Assembly: GCA_027482225.1 (NCBI GenBank)
Contig: JAIXWD010000007.1
Span: 1 to 64,000, forward strand
DNA: 64,000 bases
Reading direction: 5' to 3'
Source: Bacteroidota bacterium
GTDB lineage: Bacteria > Bacteroidota > Bacteroidia > UKL13-3
Positions 56,379 to 58,271 of the stretch are shown here, one piece after another. Below the pieces are notes generated by a model, which did not search any database, was not told where the DNA came from, and saw nothing but the letters and a program-made list of their open reading frames with translations. Position numbers and translations under genes: made by a program. How positions within the stretch are numbered: the stretch's first letter is position 1; the number at the start of each line of letters is the position of its first letter.

Positions 56379-56505
56379 TATGCCCAATATACAAGGTTAT
56401 TAGCTTACTGTATTAAACTTTCTATACCTATTTGTGGTGCTTTTATTTGAGCTGTAGGGAAATTACACGAAAGATCTTTTCACGAAAGAAAAAGAAACTA
56501 AATCA

Positions 56506-56551
56506 TTGCTAAAATAATTAGCAAAAACATACGTATTATTTGCTAATTTTG
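56506..56551 (+). promoter_or_regulatory. umuDC promoter and SOS-like operator
   Basis: Three half-sites are seen: TTGCTAA (56506-56512), TTAGCAA (56518-56524) and TTGCTAA (56540-56546). The outer two arms of a longer inverted repeat ATTAGCAAA / TTTGCTAAT (56517-56525, 56539-56547) flank the centre. The -7 TAATTTTG (56544-56551) overlaps the last half-site. This is a plausible LexA-type operator controlling the polymerase genes. Confidence 0.6.
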
Positions 56552-56560
56552 TTGGCATAT

Positions 56561-57010
56561 ATGGCGGTGCATAAATTATACGATACCATTACGCTTGATA
56601 TTTATTCTGCCCTATCTGAATCGGTGCTGGAGTTGCCGTTTATAGAGGGCGGTATTAGTGCTGGCTTTCCTTCGCCTGCACTTGATTTTATTGATTTAAA
56701 AATAGACCTTAACAAACATGTGGTTAAACATCCATCTTCTACTTTTTATGGTAGGGTAAAGGGTGTTTCTATGATAGATGCAGGAATACACGATGGTGAT
56801 TTATTGGTAATAGATAAAAGTTTAGAACCCAAACACGGCAAAATAGGCGTGTGTTACATTGATGGAGAGTTTACTGTAAAACGGATCTTTATTAAAAATG
56901 GTGAGCTTTGGTTGATGCCTGCAAATTCTGCATATGAGCCTATTCGTATTACTCCCGAAAATGAATTGTTGGTATGGGGTATTGTTACCCACGTAATAAA
57001 AGCCTTTTAA
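56561..57010 (+). CDS. umuD: UmuD-like S24 self-cleaving protein
   Basis: A 149-residue LexA/UmuD-type peptidase. The cleavage site is A34-G35 ([11 protein letters not shown]). The Ser-Lys dyad is S70 (GRVKGVSM) and K107 (EFTVKRIF). RecA-stimulated self-cleavage turns it into the active polymerase V subunit. The ATG at 56561 ([10 protein letters not shown]) is chosen over an in-frame upstream TTG because that one lies inside the promoter. umuC starts one base after its stop. Confidence 0.93.
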
Positions 57011-57011
57011 C

Positions 57012-58271
57012 ATGTTTGCTTTAGCTGATTGTAATAACTTTTATGCCTCATGCGAACGTGTTTTTCGTCCTGATTTAATTGGTAAACCTGTGGTTGTTTT
57101 ATCAAACAACGATGGTTGTGTAATAGCACGTAGTAACGAGGCCAAAGCATTGGGTATACCAATGGGTGCCCCAGCATTTGAATTTGAGACGTTATTTAGT
57201 AAGCACCAAGTGCAGGTGTTTTCGGCAAACTTTGCATTGTATGGCGACATGAGTAACCGTGTGATGAATATTTTGGGTGAGTACACACCTGAAATGGAAA
57301 TTTACAGCATTGATGAAGCCTTTTTAAAGTTGCAAGGATTTAAGTACGTAGATTTACATGTTTATGGGTTAAACATGCAGAAGCGTGTTACCAAAAGTAC
57401 GGGTATACCTGTAAGTATCGGCATTGCACCAACAAAGTCGTTGGCTAAAATTGCCAATAAAATTGCTAAAAAATATACCCAACAAACACGTAGTGTACAC
57501 ATTATAAACACTGATGAAGTGCGTATTAAAGCGCTTAAATGGACAAAAGTTGAGGATGTTTGGGGTATAGGAAGGCAGCATGCCAAAAGGTTGTATGCAC
57601 TTGGCATAAATAACGCACTAGATTTTGCGCAAATGGATAAAGATTGGGTTCAAAAACACATGTCAATAGTTGGGTTGCGCCTGCATCAAGACTTAAATGG
57701 AATACCAACTTTTGATTTAGAGGAAGTACAACCCAAAAAGAACATTGCCACCACACGTTCATTTGATAAAAACTTTACCACACTTGATGAGCTAAAGGAA
57801 CGTGTAACGACCTTTGCCGTGAGTTGTGCCGAAAAGTTACGCAAGCAGGGGAGTTGTTGTAACTCGCTTTCTGTTTTTTTACATACCAATAGGTTTCGTA
57901 ATGATTTACCTCAATATGCACGCAGTATGGTTGTGCAATTGCCCTTTGCTAGCAACTCAAACTACGAATTGGTAAAATATGCGAACATTGCCTTAGAACG
58001 TATTTATAAACCAGGTTATCATTACAAAAAAGCGGGCGTAATTGTATTCGATTTTACTCCAGAAGATGCCACGCAGTTAACCATTTTTGGAAACGGTAAT
58101 CCCAACCATACGGCTATTATGCAAACAATAGATAAACTAAATGCCTTATATGGCCGACAAAAGATTAAGCTCGCTTCTCAAGATTTAAAGCGCATGTGGG
58201 TTATGAAACAAGAGAAACTATCGCCACGATACACCACTAATTTAAAGGATATTATTACAGTGAAATGTTAA
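57012..58271 (+). CDS. umuC: Error-prone DNA polymerase V catalytic subunit UmuC
   Basis: A 419-residue Y-family polymerase. The catalytic acids are D6 ([17 protein letters not shown]), D101 and E102 (YSIDEAF). The steric-gate and finger segments ([21 protein letters not shown]) and the little-finger domain follow. With processed UmuD it carries out translesion synthesis during SOS. It is the second gene of the umuDC operon, separated from umuD by one base. Confidence 0.96.

Follow-up and report, generated by a model that had tools for sequence, protein, structure and literature searches.

The umuDC promoter in the window, the stretch of 64,000 nucleotides of Bacteroidota DNA analyzed here, carries an operator region of the non-canonical LexA (ncLexA) type, belonging to the known CTAA-N5-TTAG group for which both motif and regulator were published earlier. 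We regard it as very likely that this region serves as the SOS operator of umuDC, with protein P0001 binding to one operator, probably also to a second one, and leaving the DNA upon a RecA-dependent trigger. This reading is supported by the occurrence of perfect N5 sites only at umuDC and recA and of a site with one mismatch at the gene encoding P0001. The motif is thereby found at umuDC, at recA, and at the gene for a phage-like protein that takes the place of LexA in another lineage of the Bacteroidota. The new findings are modest and comprise a tandem arrangement of operators and a putative site upstream of dprA.

Three half-sites were located in the umuDC promoter: TTGCTAA at positions 56506-56512 (plus strand), TTAGCAA at 56518-56524, and TTGCTAA at 56540-56546, the third one overlapping the -7 box TAATTTTG (56544-56551, plus strand), as described in the initial annotation. 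The first two half-sites make up operator 1 (TTGCTAA-AATAA-TTAGCAA; 56506-56524, not assigned to a strand), in which the CTAA and TTAG arms are exactly five bases apart, show no mismatch, and are extended by matching flanks. Half-site 3 is the beginning of a probable operator 2 (TTGCTAA-TTTTG-TTGGCAT; 56540-56558, likewise not assigned to a strand), which is degenerate with two mismatches in 14 positions, contains the -7 box, and has its center 34 bp away from that of operator 1. Flavobacterial -7 boxes have the consensus TAnnTTTG and are placed at -12 to -5 (PMC9723704); transcription was therefore assumed to start at position 56556 on the plus strand, leaving a leader of 5 nt, with operator 1 extending from about -50 to -32. 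The umuD gene (56561-57010, plus strand, 149 aa) most likely starts with the ATG at 56561, and its product matches Peptidase_S24 only, with no DNA-binding domain match in Pfam. It is followed by umuC (57012-58271, plus strand, 419 aa) encoding IMS, IMS_C, and DUF4113 domains; UmuC is the only match to the IMS family in the genome, which leaves no imuB or dinB among the IMS-family matches.

The frequency of the motif was compared with chance expectations. Taken alone, the 7-mer shows no enrichment in the 64-kb window (21 found, 24.4 expected). TTGCTAA-N5-TTAGCAA occurs in the 2.72-Mb genome in two perfect copies, one in front of umuDC and one in front of recA, as compared to 0.097 per 2.723 Mb and 2.3e-5 in the umuDC intergenic region expected under a first-order Markov model; hence, the inward N5 pair lies far above chance. 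When the spacing of the inward 7-mers was varied over the 17 remaining values within N3-N20, two genome places were found in total, which is about the chance level. The sole N5 copy with one mismatch is located on contig C7 directly upstream of a gene encoding a protein with HTH_3 and S24 domains. The search for the motif at other DNA damage genes of the genome, proposed in the initial annotation, was thus successful for recA and for the likely repressor gene.

Less stringent searches were of little use. The bare core GCTAA-N5-TTAGC was found at ten genome places as compared to four for a reversed control, namely four at umuDC, recA, ncLexA, and dprA, four in open frames, and two between genes; the full motif with up to three mismatches gave 567 places versus 323 for the control. 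The bare core was therefore discarded as a poor predictor of the regulon. A set of 38 places with at most two mismatches and at most one core mismatch, which left out the recA site and all places with two or more core mismatches, contained 31 places inside open frames of at least 110 aa. The seven places outside such frames comprise the two operators at umuDC, one site each at ncLexA and dprA, and three more to which we ascribe no role; judging gene names by eye, we take these three to lie near a sufC-like gene, near a folC-like gene, and between a pair of divergent genes.

The genome encodes two proteins matching Peptidase_S24, namely UmuD and P0001; no canonical LexA was found among them, and neither has a match to the LexA DNA-binding domain in Pfam. 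P0001 (256 aa, contig C7) consists of an N-terminal HTH_3 and a C-terminal Peptidase_S24 domain. Unlike canonical LexA it lacks the winged helix, and it reached 21.9 bits against the lexA equivalog with a cut-off of 110.95; the palindromic operator over promoters of DNA damage genes and the S24 repressor are features shared with the canonical SOS box. All 40 aligned relatives conserve the S24 self-cleavage residues Ala106-Gly107, Ser143, and Lys182 without exception. Based on its HTH_3 and S24 domains, the operator motif, and the target genes, P0001 is likely the ncLexA of this genome. The N-terminus of ncLexA was modeled as CI-like (PMC8565304), and a sequence search of the PDB with ncLexA returned five relatives, all in the HTH domain only. 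The promoter of P0001 itself carries a second site, TTACCAA-N5-TTAGTAT, 23 bp away from the primary one.

In the initial annotation, the umuDC element was regarded as a possible clear example of the SOS box of Bacteroidota, which it called less well described than the SOS boxes of other phyla. The reading as SOS box was upheld by the motif at recA and at the gene of a likely LexA-like repressor. The box itself had already been described, since CTAA-N5-TTAG was published in 2021 as the operator of the Bacteroidetes ncLexA (PMC8565304). According to that study, one regulator of the CTAA-N5-TTAG group bound specifically in EMSA and lost binding when either arm or the length of the spacer was changed; target genes were induced by mitomycin as determined by RT-qPCR; and promoters carrying two or more sites are mentioned. 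The system studied here resembles the published one in its core arms, the N5 spacer, and the targets umuDC, recA, and the regulator gene itself, as well as in the HTH_3 and S24 domains of the regulator with conserved Ala-Gly and Ser-Lys residues (PMC8565304). It differs in the extension of the arms to TTGCTAA and TTAGCAA, a degenerate second site that covers the -7 box at a distance of 34 bp, and the putative dprA target. Binding and induction by mitomycin would be carried over to this organism by analogy with the relatives examined in PMC8565304.

Conservation of the sites was analyzed in related genomes. A core-perfect site was present in 16 of 30 ncLexA promoters, and these 16 belong to the 17 promoters whose proteins are at least 59% identical. 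Wider ncLexA sets were less uniform, with core-perfect sites in 21/40 and, among the matches listed, 43/100 promoters; in the set of 40, the ncLexA promoter of genome G092, with 68% protein identity, has no core-perfect site. The site was accordingly missing in 14/30, 19/40, and 57/100 (among the matches listed). Six of 26 recA promoters carry a core-perfect site, and these six represent all members of the genus with a RecA match. A class-wide analysis of umuD, counting 79 places rather than 79 genomes, revealed an operator site at 20 places including the window, as compared to 2 of 78 control stretches located farther upstream. For umuC, a core-perfect site within 800 bp upstream was found at 6 of 80 loci, of which L078 (site at -739) is doubtful. 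The two-site arrangement of the window recurs in genomes G004 and G005, whose umuDC promoter sequences are the same as those of records L070 and L071. G002 and G003 belong to the same genus and have other umuD types without a comparable site nearby; the best site within 300 bp of umuD in G002 has three mismatches and is located at -285. These two umuD genes and the frequent lack of a core-perfect site at ncLexA relatives count against the SOS operator reading. An early comparison of umuD promoters left out L058.

Two of these genomes deserve a remark. In G005 (L050/L071), the similarity to the window begins at position 56505, one base before operator 1, and the sequence upstream differs, so umuDC and its operator seem to sit in another genomic place; the right-hand end of the similarity is uninformative because the contig ends at the umuC stop codon. 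G003 showed no RecA match at 1e-80 and no ncLexA match at a listed completeness of 99%, and is perhaps a fragmented or mixed bin.

At ncLexA promoters, second operators often lie at a fixed distance from the first. In an earlier set of 40 ncLexA promoters, 19 without a core-perfect primary site were excluded, and 16 of the remaining 21, including the genome's own ncLexA gene, had a second site at 23 bp; several umuD promoters across the class likewise carry two sites 23-25 bp apart. Before new data were collected, we predicted two preferred spacings for the second sites of ncLexA promoters, one of 22-26 bp and one of 33-36 bp; from the earlier set, G033 was known at that time. The new set comprised 100 ncLexA promoters among the matches listed, 57 of which were excluded because they have no core-perfect primary site. 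A second site at 22-23 bp was present in 25 of the other 43 promoters (among the matches listed), whereas 300 rounds with shuffled flanks yielded 0.1 such pairs on average and never more than two. Among the same 43 listed promoters, none had a second site at 24-26 bp or at 33-36 bp; five had one at 58-59 bp, all in family f33, and other spacings were single cases. The first half of the prediction, 22-26 bp, was strongly borne out and the second half, 33-36 bp, was not borne out at all. The pairs at 22-23 bp belong to eight families (f1, f20, f23, f29, f35, f37, f40, and f41, among the matches listed); species within one family are not independent in these counts. A primary site is present at 18 umuD places; among these, a second one was located at 23 bp (four, all f35), 25 bp (one), 19 bp (one), and 34 bp (the window). 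No second site of comparable quality was found at recA and dprA of the checked genus members (10 loci). A spacing of 34 bp corresponds to 23 bp plus about one helical turn and was seen in a single umuDC type; as the new set showed no excess at 33-36 bp, the spacing of the window stays a single case.

Two deviating arrangements were observed in these sets. Loci L406, L410, L411, L417, and L420 of family f33 have two good ncLexA sites 58-59 bp apart, which perhaps reflect a spacing by more whole turns or two promoters. The ncLexA promoter L356 of genome G349 carries three sites at -222, -41, and -18, the last two being 23 bp apart; it did not enter the count of 22-23 bp pairs, as the best score was that of the far site.

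The fixed spacing suggests, by analogy with lambda CI, that dimers contact each other on one face of the helix. Adjacent lambda operators are about 23-24 bp apart from center to center, and lambda CI tolerates whole extra helical turns between operators. P0001 shares with the CI protein acting at OR1-OR3 a phage-type HTH and an S24 C-terminal domain; it differs in serving a host regulon rather than a prophage switch and in the 34-bp distance of the pair in the window. We tentatively propose, with somewhat less than even confidence, that ncLexA of Bacteroidia uses tandem operators in helical phase and binds cooperatively, so that umuDC and the regulator gene would be switched more sharply than recA and dprA with their single sites. 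This proposal is weakened by the missing 33-36 bp sites and by operator 2 being no better conserved than the linker in the comparison with G004. The occurrence of a fixed second-operator spacing in eight families leads to the prediction of cooperative, phase-dependent binding, and the tandem spacing is relevant to a possible origin of this SOS repressor from a phage repressor. In the available main text of PMC8565304, nothing was found on a fixed spacing of 22-23 bp, cooperativity, or tandem binding, and a literature search combining LexA, tandem operator, cooperative, and SOS returned nothing.

The spacing of 22-23 bp could also result from packing of two sites around a promoter with the -7 box between them, an explanation we rate as a serious one of somewhat below even probability. 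Families f1, f20, and f41 indeed have a TAnnTTTG-like box exactly in the short linker, and the absence of any 33-36 bp match in the new set fits packing as well. However, inspection by eye indicated that the upstream site of f40 seems to contain the -7-like box while the spacing is still 23 bp, and that the linker of f23 lacks TTTG at a spacing of still 22 bp; furthermore, a spacing of 23 bp was seen at the umuD promoters of f35 as well.

Positions 56540-56558 probably represent a second, weaker operator over the -7 box, as judged from the sequence. TTGGCAT, located at N5 distance from half-site 3, matches TTAGCAA in five of seven positions; an equally good match is found at 2.5% of the window positions, and such a partner at N5 distance is absent from all 18 TTGCTAA copies found elsewhere in the window (operator 1 excluded). 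Alternatively, operator 1 would be the only functional site, and half-site 3 a coincidence owed to the -7 box TAATTTTG and the sequence around it. We consider this rather unlikely, though there are several points in its favor: operator 2 is degenerate, equally good right halves are found at 2.5% of positions, and recA and dprA of this genome have single sites. Moreover, a comparison with G004 revealed changes at 2 of 19 positions in operator 2 and at 2 of 15 in the linker; therefore, the conservation argument for operator 2 is modest, and the conservation of TTGGCAT, located near the start codon, may have other reasons. On the other hand, TTGGCAT is kept in all three species with this umuDC type, whereas the linker (56525-56539) varies at 5 of 15 positions. 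The umuDC promoter of Pedobacter cryotolerans (L140) carries a core-perfect site, CTAATTTTGTTAG, over a similar -7 box beside the ATG, and ncLexA promoters, that of this genome among them, commonly carry tandem sites. Half-site 3 reads TTACTAA in G004, a form common in sites of ncLexA promoters, and the -7 box there, TAAATTTG, still conforms to TAnnTTTG; half-site 2 reads TTAGCAC in G005.

The initial annotation had left open whether the inner pair with 5-base or the outer pair with 15-base spacing is bound. This question is resolved in favor of the inner N5 pair formed by half-sites 1 and 2, because the published ncLexA does not tolerate changes of the spacer and no enrichment of outward pairs was seen in this genome. 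As the rival palindrome, TTAGCAA-N15-TTGCTAA (56518-56546), with half-site 1 as an accessory element, would span the region from -33 to -7 and is the only outward match for N8-25 in the genome. One match over 18 spacings is, however, about what chance predicts (0.097 per spacing), the pair is absent at recA and ncLexA, and its arms are altered in both G004 (half-site 3) and G005 (half-site 2). Together with the loss of binding upon spacer changes reported for ncLexA (PMC8565304), this makes it very improbable that the outer pair is the bound palindrome, and it was rejected.

Our preferred model for umuDC regulation thus starts from the inner pair. A P0001 dimer would bind operator 1 (56506-56524), and a second dimer would probably occupy operator 2 (56540-56558) covering the -7 box and the presumed transcription start; dimers on both operators would block transcription of umuDC. 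Once DNA is damaged, ncLexA would respond to RecA filaments by cleaving itself at Ala106-Gly107 and thereby leave the operators empty, so that recA, umuDC, ncLexA itself, and probably dprA would be expressed. A non-LexA S24 repressor acting on error-prone polymerases is also known from the UmuDAb-DdrR system of Acinetobacter (PMC11332147); UmuDAb is derived from UmuD and its operator needs a GTnAC core (PMC11332147), whereas the ncLexA site depends on its arms (PMC8565304). A UmuD-like repressor had been considered in the initial annotation; despite the precedent of UmuDAb as a UmuD-derived repressor of error-prone polymerase genes, it is most improbable that UmuD itself is the repressor here, since UmuD of the window has an S24 match only and no N-terminal DNA-binding domain (Pfam), no DNA-binding domain was reported for any Bacteroidetes UmuD examined in the 2021 study (PMC8565304), and the separate HTH_3 and S24 protein P0001, whose gene on contig C7 is itself preceded by a site of this kind, is most likely the regulator instead.

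A further candidate target is dprA. The site of this genome (G000, contig C18, positions 254915-254933; L039, positions 1516-1534) is weaker than those of umuDC and recA. In six of eight dprA promoters of the genus (L039, L217, L218, L219, L221, and L239), a core-perfect site begins 66-87 nt upstream of the gene, as compared to none of 14 outside the genus; this count left out three of 25 rows, namely the partial G005, G054, and G047. From these sequence data, dprA is a putative SOS target of the ncLexA regulon; if real, it would extend the regulon to a gene of DNA processing. The gene is not named in the available main text of PMC8565304, and no report of such a regulation of dprA was found in the titles and abstracts of the papers listed by literature searches.

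Finally, a diverged palindrome, TTGCT-N9-AGCAW, was observed upstream of ncLexA in L167 (G016) and L168 (G027) and upstream of recA in L186 (G016). It has kept the outer arms and lost the inner AA/TT, and possibly represents a shifted motif in genus g9.
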